A stretch of DNA of 44,875 bases from a virus (IMGVR_UViG_3300017917_001609:1-44875), one strand, 5' to 3'; shown: positions 2,645-24,019, counted from the first letter of the stretch. Notes: generated by a model from the sequence alone, not told the origin. Numbers and translations: made by a program.

Positions 2645-2863
2645 TTAGATAGGCATTTCAGGGTCAATAACATACTGCTGTTCTGCATTTAATTTTTCAT
2701 AGAACTGCCCTTTGGCAATCTTATAAATTTCATCAATGCCGTCAATGTTGTGATTCTTTGCCAGGTGTAAAATGATATCCTGATTCATGGAAGCATCAAC
2801 AGAAGCTACTACCTTACCTTCTGGGGTTAGTTTTTCGATTGTTATTTTAAATTGGTTGTTCAT
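2645..2863 (-). CDS. Hypothetical protein, 72 aa
   Basis: I prefer the start MNNQFKITIEK at 2863 over an upstream ATG at 2893, because the upstream version adds only an out-of-character MIMMNILRIK stretch. The chosen start overlaps the 3' end of the 2847-3164 gene by 17 bases. The protein looks alpha/beta, soluble and without a known motif. Function unknown. Confidence 0.6.
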   Translation of the reverse strand: MNNQFKITIEKLTPEGKVVASVDASMNQDIILHLAKNHNIDGIDEIYKIAKGQFYEKLNAEQQYVIDPEMPI

Positions 2864-3164
2864 TTTTATCCTTAATATATTCATCATAATCACTAAACTT
2901 AAGACCCCACTGTAATCCTGCCCACATCATCTCTCTTTCGGCCGTCTTAGCGGAGAGTCTTAAGTTTTTCATGAGGTATTTTTTACCCCATAACTTCCAG
3001 TCCTCAGATTGTTGTACAGTCATAGTCCATTGCTGAAACCAGTTGTCTTGTCTGTCTTTAATGTCTTCGTAGGTAACCTGGTGACCGGCAATGATGAACA
3101 TTTGATTGATTAGATCAACGACTGCTTTGTCCCATTTCTGTTCTCTGGTTAAACGTTTGGTCAT
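2847..3164 (-). CDS. Hypothetical protein, 105 aa
   Basis: A Trp-rich, mostly helical soluble protein (WFQQWTMTVQQSEDWKLWGKKYL) with no recognised catalytic motif. It lies between the RNA ligase gene and a run of small unknown genes and is probably cotranscribed with the ligase. Function unknown. Confidence 0.65.
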   Translation of the reverse strand: MTKRLTREQKWDKAVVDLINQMFIIAGHQVTYEDIKDRQDNWFQQWTMTVQQSEDWKLWGKKYLMKNLRLSAKTAEREMMWAGLQWGLKFSDYDEYIKDKNEQPI

Positions 3165-3178
3165 TGTTAATTTTATTC

Positions 3179-5688: not shown

Positions 5689-7212
5689 TTATTTCAAACG
5701 ATTTCTAATTTCGTCTAGGGTAGTTCTGTATACTACATTACCATTATGGTAAATAGTTTGTAATTCACCTGTATTCTCAGTTTTCCAATTACAACGGTCA
5801 TACAATTCATAACCGCCATCAACTTCACTTTTAAATACAGCTAATAATCCTGTAGCAGATTTCTTAGTTCCATCATCAGTGATTGGATCTTTGAAGATTT
5901 CTCTACCTACTGTTTTAAACCCAAGTATACCGTCTTTGTCTGGCACATTTCCTAAACCATCAAGTTCCAATACCTCTACATAAGTTGCTTTCATTGCAAA
6001 TCCAAATGTATCTCTAGTATTATATTGGTAAGTAAATGAACCAATACCTAATACTACGTTAGTTGAAGCAAATCCTTTAGCTTCTAAACGTTTACAGATC
6101 TCATCTGCTCTATCAATAGTAATTGAATCACCGTAAATAGCTCCAATATGACTATCAAGGACTTTATAACCTTGTTCGTTTACTGTTCCACCAAATACAT
6201 CCCAAAGCAATTCGATAACACCTTTCCATTCAGGTTTCATTGTGATATCCTTTGTCCACATTGAGTTTGCTGTGTTTAATCCACATAAAATATCAGCCGG
6301 ATCACCTGAGTCAGGACGAATAACCAATTTACCATCACGAGCCATAATTTCTTCTTTCAAAGTAACTACATGCTCGGTACATACTTTCCATAAGTCCCAA
6401 GTATCAGATACAACTGATAAAATACCTGTTGGATAAGTTTCTAACAATCTACGGAATGTATCAACTTCATCTTCCTTACCACCAGCACACATTACACTAT
6501 GTTCAGTAGCGTTTACAGAACCACATACCATTCCTTCAGCATTATAATACTTTCTAGCACCATAAATAGTAGGTAATGAATCTGATCCTAAGAATGAAGT
6601 TAAGTGACCTAAACCTGAACTAATAACAGCTTCGGCTGAATCCATACCTCTCATTGAGAAGTCATGACCTTGCCAATCAATAAACCATGCTCGTTCAGCA
6701 TCTGTTTTCTCCATCCACTTAGTTAATACTTTTCTATATTGATGAGCAATAGTAGCAGATGTCATTGGCTTCCACAACAAGTTAGACAAGATAGTCTCTA
6801 AATAATTTGTAACCCAATAAAAATCAGGTACAGTGTTGTAGATAGTTAATACAGGAACTTTCATTGGTACTTTAGTACCCTCAGGCAATGCTTTAACACA
6901 AATAGGCAAATAACCTAAATCATGCAATGCTTCAAAGTGAGATACATCATAATCAGTACCTAAGTACATAGACAACTCACGTTTCATCTCTCCGCACACC
7001 TCATCTTTAGGTCTACTAAAGAAGTCGTTTTGAAATGCTTCATGTAGTTGCTGCATTACCATTTGCGTACCAAACACAACTACTTCATTACATCCTTTAG
7101 GAGCGTATTTATTTGAACGTGGTGTAAAATTTGAATAAACCAACGTGGTTCCCTTTGGGTATTGTTGGTGGTGGCCTGTTTTGTAACCGTCTGTTAATAA
7201 TAATGGGTTCAT
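5689..7212 (-). CDS. Nicotinamide phosphoribosyltransferase (Nampt)-like; probable NARP1 Namat
   Basis: A full-length (507 aa) Nampt-family enzyme. Recognised elements are LLTDGYKTGHHQQYP (5-19), the active-site HDFSMRG (183-189), ATEHS with the catalytic-type His (235-239), RPDSGDP (299-305) and GDSI near residue 366. Nampt couples nicotinamide to PRPP. In the phage NARP1 pathway its homologue Namat instead couples nicotinamide to ADP-ribose pyrophosphate, rebuilding NAD+ after host defence enzymes destroy it. The adjacent Prs-like gene upstream makes the NARP1 reading the best one. It has its own promoter at 7233-7263. A conventional Nampt salvage role remains possible. Confidence 0.93.
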   Translation of the reverse strand: MNPLLLTDGYKTGHHQQYPKGTTLVYSNFTPRSNKYAPKGCNEVVVFGTQMVMQQLHEAFQNDFFSRPKDEVCGEMKRELSMYLGTDYDVSHFEALHDLGYLPICVKALPEGTKVPMKVPVLTIYNTVPDFYWVTNYLETILSNLLWKPMTSATIAHQYRKVLTKWMEKTDAERAWFIDWQGHDFSMRGMDSAEAVISSGLGHLTSFLGSDSLPTIYGARKYYNAEGMVCGSVNATEHSVMCAGGKEDEVDTFRRLLETYPTGILSVVSDTWDLWKVCTEHVVTLKEEIMARDGKLVIRPDSGDPADILCGLNTANSMWTKDITMKPEWKGVIELLWDVFGGTVNEQGYKVLDSHIGAIYGDSITIDRADEICKRLEAKGFASTNVVLGIGSFTYQYNTRDTFGFAMKATYVEVLELDGLGNVPDKDGILGFKTVGREIFKDPITDDGTKKSATGLLAVFKSEVDGGYELYDRCNWKTENTGELQTIYHNGNVVYRTTLDEIRNRLK

Positions 7213-8955: not shown

Positions 8956-9608
8956 AGTCTGCGCTCATGGTGGTCTTTAGGTAATGCTAATTTTTTAATT
9001 GGTTGATCTTTAAGAGTAAAATACACCTGATTCAAACTAGTAGGCTCTAAACGACTGCCGTCTACACCTACATCCATTGCTTTACCTTCAGCAATTCTTT
9101 GGTGTGGGGGTAAATGAACATGACCATGTAAATGCATCACTCCTTCATTCATTTTATTCCAACTAGCGATTGGGTAGTGCATTAAAACAAAGTTAAACTT
9201 ATCCATTCTACCTTTAGCAAATTCGGAAGGACGTCTAACATCCAATTCAACATAGTGGTTAACAGATGCAAACAAATCCTGAACATTGTCTTTGTTGTTT
9301 GCAATATGGTGATCATGATTACCGAGTATTAAGTGAATATTCTTACAGTTAACCCTGTTTCTGAATTCAGCAATCTTTTCAAATCCACCAAATGACCAAT
9401 CACCTAAATGAAATAAAATATCATTTTCACCTACACTTTGATTAATCCAAAATACTAATTCATCATTCATTCTATCTAATGAACTGAATTTACGAGTCAC
9501 ACTCTCAGCATCAGTCCACTTAGTAGTTGCACTGCAAATATTACTATGACCGTAGTGAGTGTCGCTGGTAAAAAATAATCTTTGTCCTTTGTCTAAAACA
9601 ATTTTCAT
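8952..9608 (-). CDS. Calcineurin-like metallophosphoesterase
   Basis: All metal-ligand motifs of the superfamily are present in order: SDTHYGH, HLGDW, LGNHDHH, MHYP and HGHVH. At 218 residues it matches the small stand-alone phage phosphoesterases. Substrates could be phosphodiesters in RNA ends, cyclic nucleotides or nucleotide second messengers; nothing in the sequence decides this. It heads a coupled three-gene operon that includes the kinase-like ATPase, driven by the promoter at 9628-9658. A role in RNA end-healing or in degrading host signalling nucleotides is inference. Confidence 0.9.
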   Translation of the reverse strand: MKIVLDKGQRLFFTSDTHYGHSNICSATTKWTDAESVTRKFSSLDRMNDELVFWINQSVGENDILFHLGDWSFGGFEKIAEFRNRVNCKNIHLILGNHDHHIANNKDNVQDLFASVNHYVELDVRRPSEFAKGRMDKFNFVLMHYPIASWNKMNEGVMHLHGHVHLPPHQRIAEGKAMDVGVDGSRLEPTSLNQVYFTLKDQPIKKLALPKDHHERRL

Positions 9609-9627
9609 AACTTTTATTTCTATATTA

Positions 9628-9658
9628 TAAAGATACGAATTATTTTGCTAAAAAGCAA
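9628..9658 (-). promoter_or_regulatory. Promoter TTG-N20-TATCTTTA for phosphoesterase operon
   Basis: TTG at 9658-9656, a 20-base spacer and TATCTTTA at 9635-9628. The TTG forms part of a small hairpin (TTGCT/AGCAA). Confidence 0.75.
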
Positions 9659-9659
9659 C

Positions 9660-10082
9660 TCAGTCCCAAAAACTTTCTATTCTCTCATTTAAAATATAAA
9701 ACAATAAACGTCTTGCTTTGGTATGCTGTGCTTGACATTTATGCATCATTTTATTATCCATAGGCGTACTATCATAGTATTCCTGGTAGTAGTCTTCGTT
9801 TTGTAGTTTGTCAATTAGCCTAACACAGGTCATTATTAACTCAGCATCACGCTCGGCACTTTCATGAGAACCATGTTTACGTAGATAGCTGGCTTGTTTC
9901 TTTAATTTAAACTGCAGTGCTTTAAGAGTGAAATCATAATCCCAATCTCGGTCTTTCCAGACTAAGGGAAACCAAACCCATAAGTTTTTAATGCCTGTCC
10001 AAATTCGTCTATGTAGATGCTTTACATCCCATATAAACCACCTGTAGAGTTTCCAGTACCATTGATTATATTCGTTGTTCAT
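9660..10082 (-). CDS. Hypothetical phage protein, 140 aa
   Basis: An aromatic, tryptophan-rich N terminus (NQWYWKLYRWFIWDVKHLHRRIW) is followed by PLVWKDRDWDYDF and a helical region. The WKDRDWDY segment recalls a hypothetical family seen in many unrelated phages, but no function is known to me. It has its own promoter and sits upstream of the phosphoesterase operon. Confidence 0.72.
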   Translation of the reverse strand: MNNEYNQWYWKLYRWFIWDVKHLHRRIWTGIKNLWVWFPLVWKDRDWDYDFTLKALQFKLKKQASYLRKHGSHESAERDAELIMTCVRLIDKLQNEDYYQEYYDSTPMDNKMMHKCQAQHTKARRLLFYILNERIESFWD

Positions 10083-10101
10083 AACTTTTATTTCTATACT
10101 C

Positions 10102-10132
10102 TAAAGATACGAAAAAAGGCTCACATAAGCAA
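10102..10132 (-). promoter_or_regulatory. Promoter TTG-N20-TATCTTTA for 9660-10082
   Basis: TTG at 10132-10130 is inside the terminator stem at 10114-10139; TATCTTTA is at 10109-10102, 19 bases before the ATG. Confidence 0.78.
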
Positions 10133-10139
10133 GCCTTTT
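10114..10139 (-). terminator. Intrinsic terminator with embedded -33 element
   Basis: The RNA forms an 11-bp stem (AAAAGGCUUGC with GUGAGCCUUUU) around UUAU and continues into a U run. It follows the SPFH operon and the gene at 10163. Confidence 0.75.
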
Positions 10140-10162
10140 CTCATAAATGTTTTTTTAATTTT

Positions 10163-10441
10163 TTACATGTCTAATAGCTTACGCCATTTCTTTTGTACTT
10201 CATATGTGTCACCACATACATAAGCATTGATTTCATTCATTGCTGTAACTACATCTTCAAAAGCAATTGCTTTACATCCTACTCTTACAACACATCCTCT
10301 ACTTAAAAATTGAATACTGATTTCATAATCTCTTAACAATTCTGATTTAGATGGTCTGTACTCTTTTTCTTCTGGTGTTGGTTGGCAAGTTTCTACTTGA
10401 TTTTCCATAAGCATTGCTTCTGATCTTAATTCGTCTCTCAT
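10163..10441 (-). CDS. Hypothetical protein, 92 aa
   Basis: A charged N-terminal third (EKEYRPSKSELLRDYEI) precedes a likely alpha/beta domain (FLSRGCVVRVGCKAIAFEDVVTAMNEINAYV). It begins eight bases after the SPFH gene and is followed by a terminator, so it is the last gene of that transcript. An internal Met at residue 12 is an alternative start. Function unknown. Confidence 0.65.
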   Translation of the reverse strand: MRDELRSEAMLMENQVETCQPTPEEKEYRPSKSELLRDYEISIQFLSRGCVVRVGCKAIAFEDVVTAMNEINAYVCGDTYEVQKKWRKLLDM

Positions 10442-10449
10442 ATTAGTTA

Positions 10450-11301
10450 TTATTTATTAATTCCGTAAAATGTATTGCTACCTTGACCTAACATTGTACT
10501 TGGCAATTCACCATTCCATTTTTCAACCCACATTTGTTGTAATAACAAAGGAGTTAATGTTGTTTGTCTTAAACGATTTGATTCAGCTTCAGCTTTAGCA
10601 CTTGTTAACATTGCTTGTGCACTTCCTTCTGCTTCTGCAATTTTAATTTTAGCTTGTGCTTCTGCTGTTTTAACTTGGTTTTCAGCAGTTAATGCCAACT
10701 GTACTGCGTTGTTCTTAGCTTCAATTGCTCGTTTAAATGTTTCTGGGTAAACTAAATTTGAGTTTAATTGTGCTAATACAAATCCTTCTGGAAGTAAGTG
10801 TTTAATTAAATTCTGTCTAACTTTTAATTCAAACTGCTCTCTATTACTAATCAATTCATCTGCTGTATAACTATTGGCTACTACCCTAAATGCATCATAA
10901 ACTGCTGTTTTAATAAATCCTGATTCTAAAGACCCTAATGTAACTCTGTATTTTGTATAGATGTAAGGCACTTTTTCACGCTGTACTGAGTAGTTAATTA
11001 AAGGTGCTACATGAAATTCTGATCCGTCTTTTGAGTTGATTACAAAAGATTCATCAGCATCCGCTGCTTTAACATACTCCTTGTGTTGGATTGTGATTGG
11101 AAACTCAACAATCTTGGTTGTGAATCGGTTGTAGAATACAACACCCGATACTTCAGTCACGTTGTCTACTCCTTTACCTGTACCAATTAAATTTACTTTG
11201 ATGCCGACATTACCTGCATCGATGATCTCCCAACCAATAAGTGAGAAGAATGCAACCACTAATACTCCGAATGTGATTGCTAATTTTGAAACTGTGCTCA
11301 T
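10450..11301 (-). CDS. SPFH/Band 7 (prohibitin-like) membrane protein
   Basis: One N-terminal transmembrane segment (about residues 7-27) is followed by an SPFH domain (IIDAGNVGIKVNLIG through the YTADELISNREQF region near residues 25-170) and an Ala/Glu-rich coiled coil (AENQVKTAEAQAKIKIAEAEGSAQA), the classic prohibitin/stomatin layout. Such proteins oligomerise in membranes and scaffold proteases or lipid domains. Phage copies could protect the membrane during infection or interfere with host SPFH or FtsH complexes; that is inference. The two small membrane genes upstream are probably cotranscribed. Confidence 0.88.
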   Translation of the reverse strand: MSTVSKLAITFGVLVVAFFSLIGWEIIDAGNVGIKVNLIGTGKGVDNVTEVSGVVFYNRFTTKIVEFPITIQHKEYVKAADADESFVINSKDGSEFHVAPLINYSVQREKVPYIYTKYRVTLGSLESGFIKTAVYDAFRVVANSYTADELISNREQFELKVRQNLIKHLLPEGFVLAQLNSNLVYPETFKRAIEAKNNAVQLALTAENQVKTAEAQAKIKIAEAEGSAQAMLTSAKAEAESNRLRQTTLTPLLLQQMWVEKWNGELPSTMLGQGSNTFYGINK

Positions 11302-14306: not shown

Positions 14307-15416
14307 TTAGTAGATTTTACCTTCCGGATCTCTCCTGTACTTTCTGGTGATTTCTTCTATTTTGGATCTCTTACCCCAGTCTGAAAGGTGTCTATCGTTT
14401 TGAACTGTGTTTATTTCAGCCTGCATGGGATTGATTGGTTCCTGCCCGGTATAAACTTTATAAGGTTCCTCATCTTCTATCTTCCAGTCTTCCTCCGGCA
14501 TATCTTCCACCATCTGGTTTAAAGCCTGATCTGTGGCATGATCTTCGTCAAATTCGTTGATTTGATCTTGTAGGTCATCATAAGCAGAAACAACATTCCT
14601 CATATCCTCAACTTTTTCTTCTAAAGGATATTCAATCTCAGGTTCATTCTTCCGTTTAAAAGCAAAGTTAGCTGCAATAACTAAAGCAATAGCCAGTGGA
14701 TCAAATACAAAAATAATAACTAGTAAGAACCAGTTGATAATTTTCTCCATAGGATATCCAGTAAGACCTGATAAGTATTTTAACGGACCTAATTCAGAAG
14801 ACGCTGTTGAGTTTGTTTTAACCTGAAGTATTTTATTCTCAATAGAGAAGATTGAATCATTCACAACATCAAGTTTACTAGAAAGTTTTTCATCTGATTT
14901 AGATGCTGATTCTATTTGTTTGTAACTTGCAGCATTTGATCTAACAACTAGATTCCCTCTGCTGTCTGTGTATTGATTGGTTGAACTTTTAGATAAAGTA
15001 CCTCGTAGTTCAGACAAAGATTGCTTTTCTTTCAAAAGATTATCCCTTGTGTCTTGAAATAATTTCTTCTTAGTCTCTAAAGCAGCAATCTGCTGAGTGG
15101 TGACCTGGTCTTTATTTGCAGTCTCCTGATAAGCTGATGATAGAAATCCGTAAATTCCGGCTGAGGTTATTAAGATTAACACAAAGGCTGCAATGGTTAG
15201 ATAGGTTCTCAGCACCTTATTCAGACTGTCCCAGTATTGATAAAGTAAAGATGCAATCACTAGCTTAGACACTTCCAAGGATCCTGCCATGATTCCAACT
15301 GCAAATGCTGCGCCGGCAAATAATTTCATCAAACCAGACACAGAATAAAAACCGGCAGAAGCAGAGACTGCTAAAGCCGATAATGCTATAATGTAAGGAA
15401 ATAGTTTTTTACCCAT
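14307..15416 (-). CDS. Multi-pass membrane protein with central coiled coil, 369 aa
   Basis: Three N-terminal membrane segments (about residues 5-25, 31-55, 73-95) precede a long coiled coil (about 105-200, KKKLFQDTRDNLLKEKQSLSEL...). A fourth membrane segment (about 226-250) and an acidic cytoplasmic tail follow. The tail has EEDW and RKYRRDPEGK near the end. The layout resembles DUF4407-like membrane proteins, but I am not certain. It has its own promoter-terminator unit and lies beside the lysis genes, so an envelope role is likely. Confidence 0.75.
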   Translation of the reverse strand: MGKKLFPYIIALSALAVSASAGFYSVSGLMKLFAGAAFAVGIMAGSLEVSKLVIASLLYQYWDSLNKVLRTYLTIAAFVLILITSAGIYGFLSSAYQETANKDQVTTQQIAALETKKKLFQDTRDNLLKEKQSLSELRGTLSKSSTNQYTDSRGNLVVRSNAASYKQIESASKSDEKLSSKLDVVNDSIFSIENKILQVKTNSTASSELGPLKYLSGLTGYPMEKIINWFLLVIIFVFDPLAIALVIAANFAFKRKNEPEIEYPLEEKVEDMRNVVSAYDDLQDQINEFDEDHATDQALNQMVEDMPEEDWKIEDEEPYKVYTGQEPINPMQAEINTVQNDRHLSDWGKRSKIEEITRKYRRDPEGKIY

Positions 15417-15420
15417 AAGT

Positions 15421-15451
15421 TAAATATAGGTAGTAAAATAAAAAAAGGCAA
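15421..15451 (-). promoter_or_regulatory. Promoter TTG-N20-TATATTTA for coiled-coil membrane protein
   Basis: TTG at 15451-15449 is inside the 3' arm of the upstream terminator; TATATTTA is at 15428-15421, four bases before the ATG at 15416. Confidence 0.75.
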
Positions 15452-15466
15452 GTTAATTCTTGCCTT
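15445..15466 (-). terminator. Intrinsic terminator overlapping the holin-family stop codon
   Basis: A perfect 8-bp stem AAGGCAAG/CUUGCCUU around AAUUAA is followed by seven U residues. The loop contains the TAA stop of the 15453 gene. Confidence 0.82.
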
Positions 15467-15866
15467 CGTTTGATTTATGTTTATCTATCTTTTTAAGTAT
15501 TTCCGTGACTAATTCATTTTTTATGAATCCTGCGTCGGCAGCATTCTTTAAGGAACTAATTAACTGAAAGACTATCAACGGCATTAATATTGTCTCTGAA
15601 AGCCAGGAGGTGCCTTTAAACCCTTGCTCCACCATAAGTAGAACTGTTAACGTTATTACCCAAGCCACCAAGGTTTTTAATACCCTAATTGCTTTGTAGG
15701 TTTTAAACCCTTCTCGTTTTATCCCGGCAATGATTCCAAAAAAACCATCCATAAAGATCACAGCAACAATTGCCAGATATTGATCGGCATTATCCATAGC
15801 TAAATTTAGAAAATAACTGCAGACAAAAGAAAGGGCTGCTGTGGTTGCGAATATAGTGGTTTTCAT
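15453..15866 (-). CDS. Holin-family-like membrane protein, 137 aa
   Basis: I prefer the start MKTTIFATTAALSF at 15866, which avoids a 17-base overlap with the upstream gene; an ATG at 15896 is the alternative. Three to four hydrophobic segments and the MDGFFGIIAGIKREGFKTYKAIRVLKTLVAWV segment are typical of phage holin-4-like proteins. The charged tail (KKIDKHKSNEGKN) would face the cytoplasm. Its position two genes downstream of the endolysin supports a role in lysis, although the 17104 gene is a second candidate. Confidence 0.72.
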   Translation of the reverse strand: MKTTIFATTAALSFVCSYFLNLAMDNADQYLAIVAVIFMDGFFGIIAGIKREGFKTYKAIRVLKTLVAWVITLTVLLMVEQGFKGTSWLSETILMPLIVFQLISSLKNAADAGFIKNELVTEILKKIDKHKSNEGKN

Positions 15867-15879
15867 TTTTATTATTAGT

Positions 15880-16257
15880 TTATCCAATATGGTCATCTAA
15901 ATGATCAGGGATTCCATCTCCGTCCACATCTGCAATTTCACCATACCCTAATGCTTTCATAAAATTAGCAACTCGGTCTTTTAAGTCCCCATCACTATCA
16001 GCAAACCAATCTTCTTTAATAACATCATGGCTTAGTAATACTGTGATGGCTGTATAAAGAGTATCTACATCATCCACAAGATAAATATCCGGGGTGTGGA
16101 AATCTAAACTGAATGCATAGTCGTCTATTTGAGGTATTTTTAGTAGGTCGTCTATCTTACCTATTTTCTTTTCTGAAGGTACTTTACCTCCAAATTTATG
16201 GAAGTATTCACCTACGTAGATATACCCCTGCTTTTCTTTTAATTGAAACTCGCTCAT
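15880..16257 (-). CDS. Hypothetical protein with C-terminal Ca-binding-type repeat, 125 aa
   Basis: A mostly acidic soluble protein. The C terminus ADVDGDGIPDHLDDHIG is a clear thrombospondin-3-like calcium loop (DxDGDGxPDxxD), and an upstream DSDGDLKD is another acidic turn. There is no signal peptide. It lies one base after the endolysin gene and is surely cotranscribed, so a lysis-accessory or virion role is possible. No family recognised. Confidence 0.68.
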   Translation of the reverse strand: MSEFQLKEKQGYIYVGEYFHKFGGKVPSEKKIGKIDDLLKIPQIDDYAFSLDFHTPDIYLVDDVDTLYTAITVLLSHDVIKEDWFADSDGDLKDRVANFMKALGYGEIADVDGDGIPDHLDDHIG

Positions 16258-16258
16258 C

Positions 16259-17104
16259 TTATTTTAATAAATTATAATATTCGTTGAAATGCTTGATTCT
16301 ATCAGGTAATCCAATTGTACCGCCATTTACTCTTTTGGTAACTGCTGTAACTGTTCCTTGATCTGCTCCCCTATCACAAATAGTCCAAAGTCCGTTCTTG
16401 TTAAAGAACCAGGCTGCTGATGCTAAAGCATATTTAGTTGATACTAAATCCGGATTAGCTAAAATATCCTCAGGGACTGTCTTATCAAATGCCGTGTAGT
16501 TATCTTTACCGGTTAATTGAATGTAGCCTCTTCCTCTGAATTTGTATCCATCACCTGTAGCTTCTGCTCCATTGCCCATTCTGCCTCCGTAGACTCTGTT
16601 AGCAATTTTTTGAGGCTGTTTAGCGTATTGTTCTGCTAAAGCAGGAGTAAAGTATTTTGGAAAAATACCTAATAGTCCTTTTGAACTGTAAAATAAATTT
16701 TCACTAGTTGATTTAAACTGCCCTGATTCATGACCGGCCTGTGCAAGGAAATGAGCCAGACGTAGAATATTTGTAATATTAAACTTAGCTGCCGTATCCG
16801 GAATTGCTGCTATTACAGAATCAGGAACATGTCCTTTTAATTTATCCAATTTGAACGGAGAAACTAAGATTGTAGTTTGAGCAGGTACTGTAGCCACAGC
16901 TGGAACAGCTACTGTAGGAGTGATTCCCATAATCTTATTCCAGGTTCCATCACCAACAATACCGTCTGCGGTCAAGCCGTTGGCTGCTTGAAATGCTTTA
17001 ACTGCTGCTTCTGTCTTAGGTCCGAAAGTGCCAATAGCCTCTACACCTAATTTAACCTGTAATTTTTTAACGTCTTCTCCGACGTCACCTTTTTTTAATA
17101 ACAT
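16259..17104 (-). CDS. Endolysin: PG_binding_1 domain plus GH19 muramidase/chitinase-like domain
   Basis: Residues 1-60 form a peptidoglycan-binding repeat (KGDVGEDVKKLQVKLG, FGPKTEAAVKAFQ, DGIVGDGTWNKI). An Ala/Pro/Val linker (62-80) leads to a GH19 catalytic domain (about 86-281). The catalytic glutamates are probably Glu126 in AGHESGQF and Glu135 in STSENL, with the later KFRGRGYIQLTGKDNY signature. It degrades the peptidoglycan sugar backbone at lysis. Its first base is shared with the stop of the holin-like gene upstream (TAATG). Confidence 0.93.
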   Translation of the reverse strand: MLLKKGDVGEDVKKLQVKLGVEAIGTFGPKTEAAVKAFQAANGLTADGIVGDGTWNKIMGITPTVAVPAVATVPAQTTILVSPFKLDKLKGHVPDSVIAAIPDTAAKFNITNILRLAHFLAQAGHESGQFKSTSENLFYSSKGLLGIFPKYFTPALAEQYAKQPQKIANRVYGGRMGNGAEATGDGYKFRGRGYIQLTGKDNYTAFDKTVPEDILANPDLVSTKYALASAAWFFNKNGLWTICDRGADQGTVTAVTKRVNGGTIGLPDRIKHFNEYYNLLK

Positions 17105-17361
17105 TATCCCTCTGAATTATCGTTTTTGTCTTTCTTTGAATTAATAAATTTATCCACTGATGCTATTCCAAATGCTCCTAAAACTAAAACCATAAATCCA
17201 TCAAAGATGAATTGGTTGAGGGTTAATTCTCTTCCCATCCATCCAGTGATTAAATCCACAAGGAGGGCAAGGACTAACATTAAGAATGCAATAAACCCTA
17301 CTACTGATTTTTCATTAATAGTGTTGTTGTCATCAAATAATTTTTTTAAAAAGTCTTTCAT
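17104..17361 (-). CDS. Holin-like protein, 85 aa, two TM segments
   Basis: A small membrane protein with a charged N terminus (MKDFLKKLFDDNN), two hydrophobic helices (about 21-40 and 54-72) and a charged C terminus (INSKKDKNDNSEG), the layout of class II holins. It directly precedes and overlaps the endolysin gene. Holin function is inferred from topology and place. Confidence 0.75.
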   Translation of the reverse strand: MKDFLKKLFDDNNTINEKSVVGFIAFLMLVLALLVDLITGWMGRELTLNQFIFDGFMVLVLGAFGIASVDKFINSKKDKNDNSEG

Positions 17362-17371
17362 AGTCTATAAA

Positions 17372-17818
17372 TTAAAATTGTTTTGTTGTTTTTGTTAAAG
17401 CTTCTTGCAACGCTTTTGAAAAAGCTTTTCTGTTAAGAGGAACTTCTCCATTCTCAACATCTAAGAACATAGCAAAGATGAAAGTTTTTCTTTCTCCTTT
17501 ACCCTTAAAACAACCCGAACCTATGCAGATAGTAGTTTCAACTATGTAGTCTTTTCTTAACCACTGCAGTCCTATGATATTAACTAGTTGCTGAGGAGAG
17601 TAGATGCTATCAATTGATACTTGAACATCAAATCCTTCTCCTGAGTCTTGAGGGGTGTATCCTTTTTCAATTAATAACTCCTCCACATTCTCTTTTATTC
17701 CAAAAGTAACATCTCTGCCGTCAATGGTTTGAATCTGCTGATGATTACTAACATGCACTTTGACAAAAGTCGGTGCCGGTTGTAAAGCAAATAAAATAGC
17801 AGGTAGAATGTTTAGCAT
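17372..17818 (-). CDS. Exported hypothetical protein, 148 aa
   Basis: A short hydrophobic N terminus (MLNILPAILFALQPAPT) is a plausible signal peptide. The mature part has a periplasmic alpha/beta look (FDVQVSIDSIYSPQQLVNIIGLQW ... KAFSKALQEALTKTTKQF) reminiscent of small lipoprotein-like periplasmic domains, and one CIGSGC pair. The late-type box is only three bases from the ATG. It lies next to the lectin-dockerin gene and may belong to the same export system. Function unknown. Confidence 0.65.
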   Translation of the reverse strand: MLNILPAILFALQPAPTFVKVHVSNHQQIQTIDGRDVTFGIKENVEELLIEKGYTPQDSGEGFDVQVSIDSIYSPQQLVNIIGLQWLRKDYIVETTICIGSGCFKGKGERKTFIFAMFLDVENGEVPLNRKAFSKALQEALTKTTKQF

Positions 17819-17829: not shown

Positions 17830-18813
17830 TTAATAAGAAACAGATCCAGCGTATCCTGGTGCAATAATATAAAGGTTTAATGAACCTCCTGAGGTTAAGG
17901 TGGAAGTGGTGTATGTTGATACTCCTGGGTAGGTTGTTCTTACATTAACTGTGGTTGCTTTTATAGAATTGTACTGAGAGGCTGTAAAAATCCTAACATC
18001 CGGGGCTATTCTCCATTTAGAGAATATACCTGCTTTTCTTGCTGCAATATAATACTTATCTGAAACTGTTATTAACCCATCATCATTGACATCAAACATG
18101 TGATAAGAAAGTCCGTTCTTTGTTACTTTATTTAATACTATATTAGAGACTGCTTGTATGTCTGAATTGGTGTATGCTTGTATTCTTGTAGGGGCATTTA
18201 TTTCAATGTAATATTCCTTTGAAGGATCGTAAGCTTCCGAGATAGAATAATAACCATTTGAATTTGTATAAATTGTTTTGTAGAGAGTCCAAGAAGAAGT
18301 AGTAACTAGATATTCGAATTCTAATACGTAGGGCAGTGCTTGATTATTGGGTAAATCATTCCACCTGCCGTTGGAAACAAACTGGACATAATCTTCATTC
18401 CCTGCGTTATTTGGTTCTCCTGAATTCCAGTTAGAGTAAGAATAAGCTTCTCCTGTTACCCATTTCCAGGTTCCTTCTGTTACTTCATCTGTTAATCCAA
18501 TCCATCCTGAAGGCCATAAATTATAAATAAAGGTCTGCTCTGCTGCTGAAGTGATTGTAACTAAGTGACCTCCCATATTAGAACAGTTTGTTCTAGCGGT
18601 AGTCCAAATTGCAGTACCTGTAGAACGATAGTATGAGTGTCCATTATAATTTTGCTGATTGGTAAATCCTGTAATAGTCTGATTTGTTCTTCTATAAAGT
18701 TTTATAGGAACATTCCCAGCTCCTGAACCATTAGCATTATAAAGATACCCTGAGTAGTTAAATTGGCCAAATGCTGAATTGGTTATTAGTAATATAAGTA
18801 TCAACCATCTCAT
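17830..18813 (-). CDS. Exported C-type lectin domain protein with dockerin-like module, 327 aa
   Basis: A signal peptide (MRWLILILLITNSAFG) leads into a CNA-B-like beta sandwich (SGYLYNANGSGAGNVPIKLY, from residue 21). It is interrupted by a C-type lectin domain (about 57-168, with WIGLTDE, the EPN sugar-binding triplet 133-135 and WND 151-153) and resumes at SSWTLYKTIYTNSNGYYSI. A dockerin-like EF-hand follows (FDVNDDGLITVSD, 240-252), then a small beta domain (DVRIFTASQYNSI). The part after the lectin matches the T9SS protein at 21607. Probably a surface adhesin or decoy exported by the host; there is no T9SS tail of its own. ATGA overlap with the beta-barrel gene. Confidence 0.85.
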   Translation of the reverse strand: MRWLILILLITNSAFGQFNYSGYLYNANGSGAGNVPIKLYRRTNQTITGFTNQQNYNGHSYYRSTGTAIWTTARTNCSNMGGHLVTITSAAEQTFIYNLWPSGWIGLTDEVTEGTWKWVTGEAYSYSNWNSGEPNNAGNEDYVQFVSNGRWNDLPNNQALPYVLEFEYLVTTSSWTLYKTIYTNSNGYYSISEAYDPSKEYYIEINAPTRIQAYTNSDIQAVSNIVLNKVTKNGLSYHMFDVNDDGLITVSDKYYIAARKAGIFSKWRIAPDVRIFTASQYNSIKATTVNVRTTYPGVSTYTTSTLTSGGSLNLYIIAPGYAGSVSY

Positions 18814-20252
18814 AATTTTAATTTAGCTCCTATTAAGATTTGGTAATTTAAAACATCCTGACCGGCGATATAAGTTCCTCCTCCTGTTAAACCTACACCG
18901 AAAGTCTTTGTCATCTTATAAGTTAAGTTTAAAAAAGGAATAACAATTGGCTTTGCTTTAAAAAAAGTCTCTGTGTAGTATTTCTGATAAGGTGAATAAA
19001 TTCCGGCAGCAATGATTGTAGCATCTAAAGACTTTCCAATTTTTCCTTTATACATACAGCCTATAATTGCAATAGTTGATATTAGTTCTTCACCGAACAT
19101 CTGCCCGTATGTTCCTGCCACTCCGTAAAGTGCTGTAAAATTCTTTAATGAATTAACTCTGACAAATAATGCATTCCCGGTTGTTGATTGTGGCATCAAA
19201 CCTACTCCGGCTGAAACAATGTTAATATGCTTGTTTCCTTTTTGGTTAGTTCCAATCCAGGATTTAATTCCAGATACGTTCCCAATCCTGGCTCCTACCA
19301 TGTAATCTGCCGAAAAGCCGATAGAAGCTGTTCCGTCTCCTTTAACTCTAGTAAAGGACATAGTTGCTCTTGCATCCTGTGCTTTATCGGCGGCAGTTTG
19401 TATACCTACAATATCCCCCGTGAGTAAAATAGCCGGCTTTTGAGTTTCTGTTTTTGCTTTTGAGGCTGCCTTAGCTGTGTTGTTAGATTGTGTCTTTTGT
19501 GTTTCGGTTTTCTGCTCTTCTACTTTTTGCTCGTTCGGTTTTTCCGTCTCTGTTTTCTCCGACGTTGTCCCTCCCTTGCCTCCTGAAGAGCTATTCCCCC
19601 CGCTACTAGAAGTAGAGGAAGAATTACCTGATGAATTAGAACCATTGTTTACTTCTCCTTGTTTTGTTTCTGTGGACCCTTGTCCGGTGGTCTCACCATT
19701 AGAACCGCTAGAATTAGAGGACCCACTGCTACTCCCAGTATTAGGACCGTCTGTAGAATTACTTGTGTTATTTCCATCAGTCTTCTCCGGGTTATCAGGT
19801 GATTTTCCATTCTTATTAGATTTAACTTCAACACTTCCTGAACCTGTAGATGTTGTACTCCCTACACTTGTTCCAACTCCTCCGGATACTCCACTAGTTA
19901 CTGAGGATAAATCCAGGCTCACCAGGCTTGTTACATTAGTAATAATGTTAGAAACTTGGTTGGTTGAGGTGGTGGTGGTTGTAGTAGTGAATACACCCTG
20001 GCAAGGAGAAGTGGATTTATACTTATTATAAATATCATTCATCCAAATCTCAAAGGTTCCGTTATTTAATTCAAGGTATGTAAATGCTCTAACTTGTCCG
20101 TAGTATGAGATTACAATAGGAGCAGACATATCTGCTGTGATAAACTTAGTAGTATGTGTACAGGGGTCTATGTACGAATAAAGAAAGGACTGCCCTTTTA
20201 CAGACAGTCCGATTATTAAAAAAAAGAATAATATTTTAGTTTTTAAAGACAC
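18810..20252 (-). CDS. Outer-membrane beta-barrel-like protein with long Ser/Gly/Thr/Asn linker, 480 aa
   Basis: A signal peptide (KILFFFLIIGLSVKG) leads to a small N-terminal domain (to about residue 85). A low-complexity segment rich in T, S, G and N (about 88-250) and an EKTETEKPNEQ-type charged part come next. The C-terminal 210 residues alternate as in an outer-membrane barrel and end LIGAKLKL. The frame begins with GTG, overlapping the CsgG-like gene by 17 bases; no ATG is available nearby. Neighbouring exported proteins suggest a cell-surface role such as superinfection exclusion or export, which is inference. Confidence 0.72.
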   Translation of the reverse strand: MSLKTKILFFFLIIGLSVKGQSFLYSYIDPCTHTTKFITADMSAPIVISYYGQVRAFTYLELNNGTFEIWMNDIYNKYKSTSPCQGVFTTTTTTTSTNQVSNIITNVTSLVSLDLSSVTSGVSGGVGTSVGSTTSTGSGSVEVKSNKNGKSPDNPEKTDGNNTSNSTDGPNTGSSSGSSNSSGSNGETTGQGSTETKQGEVNNGSNSSGNSSSTSSSGGNSSSGGKGGTTSEKTETEKPNEQKVEEQKTETQKTQSNNTAKAASKAKTETQKPAILLTGDIVGIQTAADKAQDARATMSFTRVKGDGTASIGFSADYMVGARIGNVSGIKSWIGTNQKGNKHINIVSAGVGLMPQSTTGNALFVRVNSLKNFTALYGVAGTYGQMFGEELISTIAIIGCMYKGKIGKSLDATIIAAGIYSPYQKYYTETFFKAKPIVIPFLNLTYKMTKTFGVGLTGGGTYIAGQDVLNYQILIGAKLKL

Positions 20253-20922
20253 CGGCTTTGATTAAGTTTTCGATTACTTTGGTTGTTGCAGTCTCTAAAG
20301 ACTTTCTAGTTGCTTTACCTACCGTACTTTGAGAAAACTTCATATCAAGAGATTTCATAAATGATTCCCCGGTCTTAGTTGCTTCACCTTCTCCTGAACC
20401 GATATAGATCTGCCCGGTCATTGCATCAACAAATCTTACTTGCAGGCGAATGAATGTTGTAACCACAACCTTGCCTTTTGCACCAGAGACAGACTCGTCT
20501 TCATCAACAGCGAAATCAGCCACAGAGACGTAAACAAAATAACGAGCAGCTTTAATTTTACCTTTCCCATCAATTGGTTCTTCAAAGACTCCTTTTTTAG
20601 AAGCTTTAAATTGAGTAACCATTCGTTCTTTAATTTCTTGTTTTTCTTCTGTAAATATAAATCTATTTGTTTCATCTAAATAATCCAATACTGATTCAGC
20701 AAATCCTAATCCAACATTTTTTTCTTGTAAGCTAGGATACAAAGCTAAAACTTTAGTTAAGTCAACATTAATTACCTGGACTGTTTTCTTAATAGAATCA
20801 GTGTAATTAGATACTGATGAAATACTTTTAGTTTCAATTACATCCTTTTCAGTTGTGGTCTTCATAGAACCACAAGCAACTAAAATTACTAGTAAAAAAG
20901 AAATCAGAATGTTTTTTACCAT
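20236..20922 (-). CDS. CsgG-like lipoprotein
   Basis: A lipoprotein signal (MVKNILISFLLVILVACGS) precedes a domain with the CsgG family pattern: YFVYVSVADFAV, VRFVDAMTGQIYIGSGEGEA, then the C-terminal helix GKATRKSLETATTKVIENLIKAGV. CsgG forms an outer-membrane pore that secretes curli subunits, and homologues recur in phages. It sits upstream of the beta-barrel and lectin genes with coupled overlaps. Whether it exports or merely senses envelope state is unknown. The DVIETKSISSV linker is unlike canonical CsgG, so a distant relative is more likely. Confidence 0.78.
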   Translation of the reverse strand: MVKNILISFLLVILVACGSMKTTTEKDVIETKSISSVSNYTDSIKKTVQVINVDLTKVLALYPSLQEKNVGLGFAESVLDYLDETNRFIFTEEKQEIKERMVTQFKASKKGVFEEPIDGKGKIKAARYFVYVSVADFAVDEDESVSGAKGKVVVTTFIRLQVRFVDAMTGQIYIGSGEGEATKTGESFMKSLDMKFSQSTVGKATRKSLETATTKVIENLIKAGVFKN

Positions 20923-21239
20923 GGTGATTCTTCTTCTTTTGGTTTAGCAGGCTCTGCTTTAGCTGGTGCTGGGGAGGCTGCAGGAACTGATTTTTCCTTA
21001 ATAATAACTGTGTTAGTACCACCTGAAGCTTGCTGCTTTTGTTGGTTCTCATTACTGTTAGTAATGTTGATAACAGGAGCAGGAGCAGTTACTGCTTGAG
21101 GAGCTGCATCTTTTGATTCATCACCACCACCTAAGTGAGTGGCAAACCATGCACCACCGGCAGTTACCGCAGTGGTAATAGCTCCGATGATGGCTTTTTT
21201 AACAGCGGACATTCCGCTTTCTTCTTTTTCTTCTGACAT
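20916..21239 (-). CDS. Membrane-anchored protein with Ala/Pro-rich tail, 107 aa
   Basis: A short acidic N terminus (MSEEKEESGMSAVKK) is followed by a TM segment (AIIGAITTAVTAGGAWFA). The rest is low complexity, rich in Ala, Pro, Asn and Gln (APAPVINITNSNENQQKQQA), and ends EEESPW. It looks like a periplasm-spanning anchor, comparable in plan to spanins or TonB-like stalks but without their motifs. It overlaps the CsgG-like gene by seven bases. Function unknown. Confidence 0.68.
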   Translation of the reverse strand: MSEEKEESGMSAVKKAIIGAITTAVTAGGAWFATHLGGGDESKDAAPQAVTAPAPVINITNSNENQQKQQASGGTNTVIIKEKSVPAASPAPAKAEPAKPKEEESPW

Positions 21240-21243
21240 AATA

Positions 21244-21603
21244 TTAACCTTCTAATGTGCTTGATAATGATTGACCGTCTTCTTCATCCACTTTCTGAAT
21301 TAGCATTTTATCTCTATCCTCAGAATTGAACCAGTAGTCAACTACTTTGTTTAAGTTACCCACAAATGCACCTAGTAGAATAAGTAACATTTCTTTCCAT
21401 GATTCTTGAATCTCAATTCCAAAAAATACTGCTGAGTTGATCCCGGCAATGATGAAGAAAAACAAGAATAATACAATGCCGGTGATTTTCCAGCGATTGT
21501 TCTGCATCTGTTGTAACATATAGTAGAAACGATTCTTATCGTCTACTTGAACGAATTCAGGTTTCCCTCCGACTACGTTCTTAATTGTTTCTTTGATTCC
21601 CAT
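21244..21603 (-). CDS. Two-TM membrane protein, holin-like, 119 aa
   Basis: A soluble N-terminal part (about 1-37), two hydrophobic helices (about 41-60 and 70-88) and a cytoplasmic charged tail (FNSEDRDKMLIQKVDEEDGQ). The WKEMLLILLGAFVGNLNKVVDYWF segment is common in small phage membrane proteins. It may be an additional holin-type or scaffold membrane protein of the exported-protein island. A late-type box is 12 bases upstream. Confidence 0.7.
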   Translation of the reverse strand: MGIKETIKNVVGGKPEFVQVDDKNRFYYMLQQMQNNRWKITGIVLFLFFFIIAGINSAVFFGIEIQESWKEMLLILLGAFVGNLNKVVDYWFNSEDRDKMLIQKVDEEDGQSLSSTLEG

Positions 21604-21606
21604 AGT

Positions 21607-23499
21607 TTATTTGTTTATAAATATTTTGTGTGTTTTAGAAGTTGTGCTAGTCTGAAGAGAAAGCATATACATTCCATTCTGTAGTGTGTTTAGTCTAACT
21701 AAGTATTTATAGTCTCCAGCAGGCATTTTCTGATTTAGTATTTCTAATACTTTTCTTCCTATCATGTCTGTAACGTTAAGATCAACATCAGAGTCTACTT
21801 GCACTTTAAATTCTACTACTGCTTCTCCTTGGTTTGGATTTGGGTAAACAATTAATTTTTCTAATCCTTTAATAATAACACCCTGTGGTGCTCTTCTAAC
21901 TTCTACAATACCCATGGTAGGAGTAATATTCATATCCCTTGCATCATTACCTCCTACAAATTTAGGTCCGGTCCAAACTGCTGCTGTACCCCATTCATCC
22001 TGTGGCTTCTTAGCAATAAACTGTAGAGTCATTACTGCCTCACCATCATTTAATAACTGATCACCTTTTAAGTCAGCTGAACCAAATGCTACTACTCCAT
22101 TAGAAGGGTTTGTAAAAGAAGTCCAGTTCATCATCTTTTCTGTTAAATCAATCTTAGCAAAAGTCAATAATGAAGTATCATATTTTAATTCTATTTGGAA
22201 TGCTCCTAATTGCTTACCTCCGGTTAAAACTTTGATAGGAACATTAACTAAGTTACCTTCGTCAACCTTAATTTTAGGCATATTGATTTCAATAGTCTCA
22301 AATACATTGTCGTAAGCAACTGTGTTGTCAATAATGTAGTTCTTAGCATTAACTGGGTTTGTTATTTTGATTGGGGTTAAACGAGCCATTTTAAATCCGG
22401 TTCCGTTTGCATCACCTTTAACGTTTACATAATAGGTAATAGAGTCTTTTCCATCAACATAGTAGTAGAAGTTAGTTAAACCAGCAATTGTGCTTGTGTA
22501 GTTAGTACCTGAACCATTAATAGTATTATACTCTGCTACTGTGAAGAATTTAACATCACTCTGAGAATTAGGCCATGCAGTGAATCTACCGGCAAGTCTT
22601 CCGTAAACTGAATAAACGTCTGCGATTGTTACATTACCATCTGCTCCGTTAACATCCATTGAGTAGAAATCAAATCCTTTAGGTGTATACTGTCCTAGTA
22701 CTGTCTGGTTGATTTTCTGTGCATCAGCGGTTGAGAATACAGAACCAGGAGTCATTGTATCACCCTTAACTGCCATTCTAACATCCCAGTATGTTGTATC
22801 AATATTCTTGAAGAATACTACATGGCCTAAGTTGTTTGTTTTTTGAGTCAAAGCAGTAGTCCAGGTAGTAGATCCTTTTGCTCTTTTTTCTAAACTAACC
22901 CATAGATTCTTAGCATTAGTTCCGGTAGTGTTTATAAATTTACCAGCAAATCTAAGCATCTTCTGATTAAAACGACCACCGTAAGAATAAACTACCAGAG
23001 TCGTATCGTTACCTTGGTTGGTGGAAGCCAGATTGGGAAAGCTAGACACCCCACTCACTTTCAAGCTTCTGATGCTATCTAAACTATTCCAAACTGCTTC
23101 TGAGGCATGAGTGAAAGTTAAATCAAATGTAGCTCCGTTAGCATAATTGAATGCTGCATTAGTACCTGTATAAACAACAGTAACAGTTAAATGCCCGTTT
23201 GTATTATCATCTACATACTGTAAATACTGGTCTGTGGTTGAAATTTTTAAAGAAGGTACAACCGCCGTAAAAGCAGTCTTATCGTAGAATAATCTGAATT
23301 GCATACCTGTAATTTTCTTACCTGTGGAGGTATTATGAAAATACAAAGGAGCAACAGTCTGTCCTACTGTGTTTGTTGCTACATGATATCCGGAGTCAAT
23401 TACTACCCAATGTCCGGTTCCTGGTGACGTGGCTGCTGATTGTGCAGATGCTCCAATGGCCGCAATGGCTGTTAGGAGTAAGAATATTAATTTTTTCAT
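21607..23499 (-). CDS. Exported cohesin/dockerin-like protein with T9SS sorting domain, 630 aa
   Basis: Start chosen at MKKLIFLLLTA (23499), giving an ATGA overlap with the metallopeptidase gene. After the signal peptide there is an N-terminal cohesin-like beta domain (about 40-135) and a CNA-B-like domain (about 180-245). A dockerin-like EF-hand follows (MDVNGADGNVTIAD, about 281-294), with the RLAGRF helix and a small beta domain. A clear cohesin domain (about 406-500, IELKYDTSLLTF) precedes a textbook type A T9SS sorting domain (VYPNPNQGE...DMIGRKV...NGMYML...KIFINK). The host T9SS would display it. Cohesin and dockerin in one protein suggest self-assembly with the lectin protein. Phage examples are rare. 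Confidence 0.88.
   Translation of the reverse strand: MKKLIFLLLTAIAAIGASAQSAATSPGTGHWVVIDSGYHVATNTVGQTVAPLYFHNTSTGKKITGMQFRLFYDKTAFTAVVPSLKISTTDQYLQYVDDNTNGHLTVTVVYTGTNAAFNYANGATFDLTFTHASEAVWNSLDSIRSLKVSGVSSFPNLASTNQGNDTTLVVYSYGGRFNQKMLRFAGKFINTTGTNAKNLWVSLEKRAKGSTTWTTALTQKTNNLGHVVFFKNIDTTYWDVRMAVKGDTMTPGSVFSTADAQKINQTVLGQYTPKGFDFYSMDVNGADGNVTIADVYSVYGRLAGRFTAWPNSQSDVKFFTVAEYNTINGSGTNYTSTIAGLTNFYYYVDGKDSITYYVNVKGDANGTGFKMARLTPIKITNPVNAKNYIIDNTVAYDNVFETIEINMPKIKVDEGNLVNVPIKVLTGGKQLGAFQIELKYDTSLLTFAKIDLTEKMMNWTSFTNPSNGVVAFGSADLKGDQLLNDGEAVMTLQFIAKKPQDEWGTAAVWTGPKFVGGNDARDMNITPTMGIVEVRRAPQGVIIKGLEKLIVYPNPNQGEAVVEFKVQVDSDVDLNVTDMIGRKVLEILNQKMPAGDYKYLVRLNTLQNGMYMLSLQTSTTSKTHKIFINK
21616..21623 (-). 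promoter_or_regulatory. TATTTATA late-type box before 21244-21603
   Basis: The minus strand reads AATATTTATAAAC 12 bases before the ATG. The box overlaps the end of the T9SS-protein gene, whose last codons encode IFINK. Confidence 0.45.
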
Positions 23500-23954
23500 T
23501 TTGTGTTCCAAAGTTTTATTTGTTCTCTTGTGTGGGCTAGAAGATCCGGCTCAACATACGGCAACAATTCTAAAAACTTTAACTCATGCCTATAACATGC
23601 ATATTCCTCTTCATACCCCCTTAACATGGGACCATACCTTAGGAACTTTAAATGATAACTTTCATGAACCAGGGCTGCAGCTATATTATTGATTGAATTA
23701 AGCTTGATATCCTGGGTTGATATTACTATAACGCCTTTATCTCCTATTAAATTATTTGATGAATAATCTTCATTCCAAAATTCTACCTCCTGGGTTACTT
23801 TGTAAAGAATTGCATAGTGGTAAGGGGATGTTTTTTTGATAAGATTGATAGCTGAATAGACGATTGAATCCCAACCATCACCTGCTTTATGAACATTGAT
23901 TTGTGAAAACAGATTGAATGGTAGTAGAAACAATAGAAAAAACAACTTTTTCAT
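23496..23954 (-). CDS. Secreted zinc metallopeptidase-like protein (HExxH), 152 aa
   Basis: A signal peptide (MKKLFFLLFLLPFNLFSQ) precedes a domain with LVHESYHLKF, an HExxH zinc site, followed by GYEEEYACYRHELKFLE, in which a Glu could be the third ligand. That spacing is typical of small gluzincin-type peptidases. It is probably periplasmic and could process envelope or phage-encoded exported proteins. The late-type box is four bases upstream, and a terminator lies before it. Substrate unknown. Confidence 0.75.
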   Translation of the reverse strand: MKKLFFLLFLLPFNLFSQINVHKAGDGWDSIVYSAINLIKKTSPYHYAILYKVTQEVEFWNEDYSSNNLIGDKGVIVISTQDIKLNSINNIAAALVHESYHLKFLRYGPMLRGYEEEYACYRHELKFLELLPYVEPDLLAHTREQIKLWNTK

Positions 23955-23958
23955 CTTC

Positions 23959-23968
23959 TATAAATATA
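23959..23968 (-). promoter_or_regulatory. TATATTTATA late-type box before exported-protein operon
   Basis: The box is four bases from the ATG at 23954, immediately after a terminator. No TTG lies 20 bases upstream. Confidence 0.55.
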
Positions 23969-23972
23969 AAAA

Positions 23973-23992
23973 AGCCTAGCATCAGCTAGGCT
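23973..23992 (-). terminator. Intrinsic terminator after the ribonucleotide reductase gene
   Basis: A perfect 8-bp stem (AGCCTAGC with GCTAGGCT) around a 4-base loop, followed by a run of T on the minus strand. Confidence 0.82.
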
Positions 23993-24019
23993 CTTTCTAA
24001 ATTATTTTTAATTATTTTC

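Follow-up and report, generated by a model that had tools for sequence, protein, structure and literature searches.

The locus considered here raises the question of why a virus should carry a tightly packed run of genes for exported proteins in which cohesin, dockerin-like and lectin domains are found together with a T9SS sorting domain. The window, i.e. the whole stretch of DNA that was analysed, is a virus record of 44 875 bases, and the genes near the run (encoding a DnaB helicase, an exonuclease, a UvsX-like recombinase, a ribonucleotide reductase, an RNA ligase and Nampt) are of the kinds that large tailed phages carry. On balance, we consider it probable that the run places a T9SS-displayed cohesin scaffold on the surface of the infected Bacteroidota cell and that this scaffold carries exchangeable, dockerin-tagged ligand-binding proteins.

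Gene order and domain content of the cassette

The seven co-directional, coupled open reading frames originally reported between 17830 and 23954 were all recovered on the minus strand, overlapping or separated by gaps of a few bases. Transcription runs in the order p10, p9, p8b, p8, p7, p6, p5, p4, a holin-like gene and an endolysin gene, and no terminator-like site was found on the cassette strand before the lysis genes. Export or membrane signals had been noticed in six of the seven genes, but all seven carry one. Signal-peptide-like starts, scored by a simple hydropathy rule rather than by a dedicated predictor, occur in 63–98% of the members of the cassette families except p8, compared with 7% of 1645 other open reading frames. 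The features are as follows.

23968–23997, minus strand: strong terminator-like hairpin (13-pair stem and T run) lying between p10 and the ribonucleotide reductase gene
23496–23954, minus strand: p10, exported protein with an HExxH motif
21607–23499, minus strand: p9, scaffold of 630 amino acids (Pfam, TIGR04183, 42-member alignment A5, AlphaFold2 model and Foldseek)
22984–23415, minus strand: N-terminal cohesin-like domain of p9 (cross-matches of the cohN and cohC profiles; β-sandwich in the model)
22573–22956, minus strand: β-sandwich and dockerin-like module of p9 (first repeat degenerate, a single canonical loop of the form DxNxD..D)
21928–22290, minus strand: C-terminal cohesin of p9 (PF00963, Foldseek)
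21616–21849, minus strand: T9SS type A C-terminal sorting domain of p9 (PF18962)
21244–21603, minus strand: p8b, membrane protein of 119 amino acids with hydrophobic segments, variable member (open reading frame)
20916–21239, minus strand: p8, core, inner-membrane-anchored protein with a Pro/Gln/Asn-rich tail (homologue comparison)
20236–20922, minus strand: p7, core, CsgG-superfamily (ABD-like) protein (alignment A6, hhalign)
18810–20252, minus strand: p6, core, with a C-terminal outer-membrane barrel at about 18819–19433 (AlphaFold2, Foldseek)
17830–18813, minus strand: p5, passenger with a signal peptide, a C-type lectin and a β-sandwich/dockerin-like module as its tag
18325–18609, minus strand: C-type lectin domain of p5 (PF00059, E = 2e-17)
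17842–18300, minus strand: β-sandwich and dockerin-like module of p5 (the same module as in the scaffold)
17372–17818, minus strand: p4, core, small exported CsgG/ABD-like protein, just outside the span first reported
16259–17361, minus strand: lysis genes (holin-like protein of 85 amino acids and GH19-type endolysin; PHROG endolysin, 1e-69), not core

The start of p9 is better set at 23499 (MKK...), and the protein begins with a signal peptide, continues with a first cohesin, a β-sandwich with the dockerin-like module and a second cohesin, and ends in the sorting domain of T9SS type A. The cohesin and the full sorting domain that had been read from the sequence were both confirmed, the former by a match of residues 408–528 to PF00963 (E = 5e-13; 49.8 bits against a Pfam cut-off of 24.1) and the latter by PF18962 (E = 8e-12; 45.8 bits) and by TIGR04183 of NCBIfam (E = 1e-9), which is present in 41 of 42 orthologues. 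With a signal-peptide-like start (by the simple hydropathy rule) in 93% of its family, p9 thus has the features of T9SS type A cargo. The AlphaFold2 model (mean pLDDT 73) contains two cohesin-type sandwiches, a third sandwich followed by helices (residues 257–267 and 292–302) and the C-terminal sorting domain, and solved cohesins are among its top Foldseek matches (E from 5e-7 to 1e-5, TM up to 0.71, 130–147 columns). The N-terminal domain is a second cohesin, and in some of the related phages it scores over the cut-off that Pfam sets for cohesins.

The dockerin-like EF-hand that had been predicted is recognizable in the family, but the window's own copy lies below the Pfam threshold, with no match to Dockerin_1 (PF00404). 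This profile is matched by 17 of 55 homologous modules (best 3.6e-7), and the scaffold-family profile matches the solved ScaB dockerin (PDB entry 4uyp_B; E = 0.0019) over exactly the dockerin-like stretch of p9; a module-only profile (A9) gave weak EF-hand-type matches only when compared with the PDB. In the aligned sequences the first repeat is degenerate, in place of the two canonical F-hand repeats of a type I dockerin, and the second calcium loop is strictly canonical in 131 of 186 modules. From its sequence, the module of p9 and p5 is best described as divergent and dockerin-like, with a single canonical loop.

In p5, a C-type lectin, as initially assigned, is inserted into the scaffold-type module, and its calcium–sugar motifs E133-P134-N135 and W151-N152-D153 are invariant among 31 homologues (alignment A10), as in C-type lectins. 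Given these invariant EPN and WND motifs, p5 is predicted, by analogy with the family, to bind mannose-type sugars in a calcium-dependent manner. The passengers have a signal peptide and no T9SS tag of their own.

The remaining core proteins are distributed over the cell envelope. A single hydrophobic segment is found in p8, and its C-terminal Trp is kept in 137 of 138 homologues. For p7, described at first as a CsgG-like lipoprotein, membership of the broad PF03783 superfamily holds (hhalign probability 93.5, E = 2e-7 against host PF03783 proteins), whereas comparison with three flavobacterial curli-type CsgG proteins gave a probability of 0.4, and a role as a curli-type secretion pore was ruled out for lack of similarity to that subfamily; p7 is a lipoprotein in the clade of the window but not in the other clade. 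Profile comparison relates p4 to p7 (hhalign probability 96, E = 5e-9), and no similarity between the two was found by single-sequence phmmer; because profile comparison alone detects it, we regard the kinship as likely rather than certain, p4 then being a second, periplasmic protein of the p7 kind. The predicted outer-membrane barrel was recovered in p6, in which an N-terminal domain with two invariant Cys residues and a Ser/Gly/Asn-rich linker are followed by 12 long antiparallel strands reaching residue 478 of 480 in an AlphaFold2 model of modest confidence (pLDDT about 60–84). Its top Foldseek matches in the PDB are nearly all outer-membrane β-barrels (KdgM, NanC, TamA, FapF and autotransporters), and a signal-peptide-like start is present in 98% of the family. 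The HExxH motif first noted in p10 is retained in 94 of 94 homologues.

Conservation of the platform and exchange of the passenger

The scaffold, p8, p7, p6, p4 and one passenger form a core set that was present in 39 of 39 IMG/VR loci located through p7 alone, with 6 kb taken on both sides, and in 44 of 44 loci anchored on the scaffold. The cohesin, the module, p8, p6 and p4 lie on the same strand in all 39 of the former (the T9SS tail in 38), and p8, p7, p6 and p4 accompany the scaffold in all 44 of the latter. A chance neighbourhood is ruled out by this co-occurrence, and the original prediction, which had staked itself on domain matches and on the genes being found together in related phages, survives that check. 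Three gene orders prevail (122, 27 and 23 loci). The variable members are p10, which adjoins 42 of the 44 scaffold-anchored cassettes, p8b, which is near 17 of the 39 p7-anchored cassettes, and the lysis genes. Among relatives anchored on the helicase, p7 is missing in four of 14 records, several of them fragments.

Matches to the cassette occur in hundreds of IMG/VR contigs, and among 50 697 phage records homologues of p5, p6, p7 and p9 were found only in the isolates of immuto, a lytic phage of Flavobacterium (MW353175-7), genes 13–19 of which are the orthologous cassette. There, the scaffold is divided over two genes, the passenger comes first and p10 is missing; gene 15 scores over the PF00963 cut-off, and the lectin, cohesin and T9SS domains are recognizable, two of them having already been annotated. 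No functional description of genes 13–19 was found. Searches of the same records with the second cohesin or the T9SS tail alone returned nothing at E < 0.1, though immuto has both; a single-sequence search is too weak for such short domains, and the absence of matches among these records therefore means little. A bacterial or prophage origin was ruled out: a scan of 84 980 genomes for p7 gave three MAG contigs, apparently of phage sequence, and the module was found in none of 201 Flavobacteriaceae genomes, being present in phage-like contigs of two MAGs. The cassette is therefore to be assigned to phages of which host genomes bear few marks. The T9SS protein SprA is encoded in 40 of 41 sampled Flavobacteriaceae genomes.

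These data bear on whether the module binds cohesin at all. It could instead be a structural stalk, a β-sandwich with a helical pair, in which case the proteins would be exported separately, the scaffold as one T9SS cargo and the lectin as another surface or periplasmic protein. The divergence of the module, with its degenerate first calcium loop and a second loop that is canonical in only part of the family, and the presence of the module in the scaffold itself agree with such a stalk. We nevertheless consider it unlikely, as profile comparisons do give dockerin matches (4uyp_B and, for part of the modules, Dockerin_1), cohesin and dockerin-like modules occur together in every complete locus and, although the immuto clade encodes the cohesin/T9SS protein apart from the module proteins, these separate genes are still kept together.

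The same comparison weighs against an envelope-breaking lysis cassette, in which p8, the lipoprotein p7 and the barrel p6 would disrupt the outer membrane late in infection in the manner of spanins. In the window the cassette is indeed continued, without a change of strand, by a holin-like gene and an endolysin gene, and p8 and p7 are an overlapping pair of an inner-membrane protein and a lipoprotein. However, an endolysin-type gene is near just 22 of the 39 p7-anchored and 17 of the 44 scaffold-anchored cassettes, and the immuto cassette adjoins replication and nucleotide genes rather than an endolysin. That the p7 of one clade lacks lipoprotein character further weakens the spanin analogy, and neither the T9SS-tagged cohesin scaffold nor the swapping of ligand-binding domains would be explained, making this account quite improbable.

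The displayed scaffold that we favour is also supported by the behaviour of the passenger. Each locus encodes one module-bearing protein without a cohesin, never more or fewer, in 39 of 39 p7-anchored and 44 of 44 scaffold-anchored IMG/VR loci. When such proteins were pooled, 143 of 206 contained the lectin, in some cases with a Laminin_G_3 insert, and the others were divided among four types (GEVED, PA14 and two unassigned β-domain types), all in the same slot. A tree built from 96 scaffolds shows at least 24 changes of passenger type. The closest relative of the window has a scaffold of 98% identity and a GEVED passenger; the two DNAs are 96–97% identical on either flank, and the stretch that does not align, 17831–18799, is the p5 gene. 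In a further pair of contigs (L005 and L007) the alignment again breaks exactly at the p5 gene. Metagenome contigs may be chimeric, yet the same swap junction recurs in independent contigs. One phage record outside the locus counts, L227, contains two adjacent passengers.

The modules were also compared across exchanges. Where the lectin, PA14 and one β type are exchanged, module identity is about 0.7 at scaffold distances below 0.25 and 0.41 at distances above 0.4, whereas GEVED and the second β type (beta2) bring their own module, with only about 0.33 identity to those of other passengers. Over pairs with differing passengers, module distance follows scaffold distance (Mantel rho 0.40; none of 500 permutations was as high). 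This tracking may reflect modules that must fit their scaffold, as would be expected of binding partners, although linked inheritance would give the same pattern.

With at least five exchangeable passengers, lectin binding is therefore not the fixed function of the cassette, and the exchange of passengers on a retained platform implies that the bound target is under changing selection. By analogy with receptor-binding proteins, we infer that the ligand varies, and the function of the cassette could differ between phages. The lectin-bearing cohesin–dockerin assembly using the host T9SS that was first proposed is thus supported in its idea by the domains and their co-occurrence, but the lectin is only one of the passengers.

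Proposed working on the infected cell

In the proposed mechanism, p9 would be exported by Sec, cross the outer membrane through the host T9SS by means of its sorting domain and remain on the cell surface. The passenger, here the putative calcium-dependent C-type lectin, whose EPN motif is of the mannose type, would dock through its dockerin-like tag onto the cohesins of p9. An envelope-spanning helper set, comprising p8 in the inner membrane, p7 and p4 in the periplasm and the p6 barrel in the outer membrane, may carry, position or hold the dockerin proteins, which are without a T9SS tag. Late in infection, the passenger would bind glycans or proteins on the surface of the host or of neighbouring cells. 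The most likely benefits are the masking of receptors against competitor phages (superinfection exclusion) and cell cohesion, between which the present evidence does not separate.

Two other uses of the same proteins were weighed. Capture of host-derived or environmental glycans, with the lectin or PA14 and the p6 barrel feeding them to the infected cell as a small SusCD system or an enzyme-less cellulosome, would suit the cohesin–dockerin pairing, the carbohydrate-binding-type domains and the resemblance of the p6 fold to the oligosaccharide porins KdgM and NanC. That resemblance is weak and general (E about 1e-3, 6–9% identity), the scanned cassette proteins include no TonB-dependent transporter and no glycoside hydrolase apart from the neighbouring endolysin, and a lytic cycle leaves little time for uptake, so that glycan capture is very unlikely. 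It is equally doubtful that the proteins act on virions, or as adhesive complexes freed at lysis (for particle adhesion or as decoys), rather than on the living cell: their frequent swaps do resemble the exchange of receptor-binding proteins in tail fibres, and in the window they have a late position beside lysis genes, but signal peptides and the T9SS tag direct them away from the cytoplasm, where virions are assembled, and the immuto cassette has replication and nucleotide genes as its neighbours.

Relation to described systems

The displayed scaffold has partial precedents among phages. In Cryophage, a Bacteroidetes phage, genes with a T9SS type A tag are highly variable between near-identical phages, one of them containing PA14, and hijacking of the T9SS for superinfection exclusion or competition was proposed by the authors (PMC7468147). 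Variable phage-encoded cargo with a T9SS type A sorting domain, including PA14, is common to both systems, but in Cryophage each cargo has its own tag, whereas here a constant tagged cohesin scaffold is combined with untagged dockerin passengers and conserved envelope genes; neither `cohesin' nor `lectin' is found in the text of the Cryophage paper. In crAss-like phages, a T9SS sorting domain is found with BACON repeats, and thus likewise on a presumed carbohydrate-binding phage protein; the part of that report drawn on here describes no cohesin, dockerin or conserved cassette (PMC6949934). No report of a phage cohesin–dockerin system was found in the open-access literature searched. The claim that no phage system of this composition had been described is therefore narrowed: variable T9SS cargo has been published (PMC7468147), and only the cohesin–dockerin architecture appears to be undescribed. 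The cassette is best called a putative T9SS cargo hijack combined with a cohesin–dockerin plug-in.

With cellulosomes and non-cellulosomal cohesin–dockerin systems the cassette shares a cohesin scaffold that is predicted to be surface-anchored, a dockerin-like module on exchangeable cargo and a β-sandwich preceding this module; it differs in being phage-encoded, in its predicted anchoring by the T9SS, in its divergent one-loop dockerin-like module and in carrying binding domains rather than enzymes, since the dockerin-bearing glycoside hydrolases of cellulosomes have no counterpart among the scanned passengers (lectin, GEVED, PA14, LamG-type or unassigned), in which no hydrolase domain was found. 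It is possible, although we propose it tentatively, that the phages possess a cellulosome-like platform in the fuller sense, consisting of a T9SS-exported scaffold with a dedicated helper complex of p8, p7/p4 and p6 that is re-equipped by swaps of tagged proteins. Curli export is similar in using a CsgG-superfamily protein for exported proteins with an outer-membrane step, but p7 is by sequence shorter than, and unlike, flavobacterial curli CsgG, and no match to CsgE or CsgF was found among the Pfam-scanned cassette proteins.

If the displayed scaffold is correct, these phages would install a modular surface platform and update its plug, rather than merely adding one surface protein. The plug would be exchanged much as tail-fibre tips are, except that the site is the infected cell and not the virion. 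How a phage remodels the surface of its host could then be tested directly in culture with immuto and Flavobacterium sp. LMO8, and the cassette would provide a natural cohesin–dockerin display system for Bacteroidota. Among deposited sequences, a protein from an uncultured phage (UniProt A0A6J5M064) is an orthologue of p9 and is named by its sorting domain only.

Terminal tryptophan of p8

A C-terminal tryptophan is kept in 137 of the 138 unique homologues of p8, the small inner-membrane protein of the cassette (window 20916-21239, minus strand), with family members ending, for example, in DPW, ESW or SPW. Such consistent retention suggests that a partner recognises p8 through a signal at its C-terminus.

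Cassette variation among relatives

In the 156,904-base phage record L227, two consecutive dockerin-tagged passengers, one of the beta-domain type and one lectin, are encoded at positions 14588-16864. The scaffold homologue in locus L343 (record G225, positions 9065-10888) has a reading that crosses two TAA stops, and possibly represents either the two-gene form found in the lytic Flavobacterium phage immuto or a broken gene. In L257, the nearest relative of the window, about 670 additional bases (locus 2747-3420) separate the scaffold gene from that of p8b. At about 20 loci, a NUC1-type endonuclease with a signal peptide adjoins the cassette or is located within it, as exemplified by locus L001:

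L001 9935-10513, signal-peptide-bearing NUC1-type endonuclease; homologues flank several cassettes

Host CsgG and window genes outside the cassette

The host curli-type CsgG proteins at L168, L169 and L170 in Flavobacteriaceae genomes, unlike that of E. coli, carry a long C-terminal extension, which looks like an outer-membrane barrel. Elsewhere in the window, the protein encoded after the endolysin (15880-16257) has an EF-hand or thrombospondin-3-like motif (DVDGDGIPDHLDDHIG) at its C-terminal end. Two phage-encoded enzymes are

5689-7212, nicotinamide phosphoribosyl transferase
3179-4312, RNA ligase

and, by analogy with other large phages, their presence is suggestive of NAD-related and RNA repair roles.
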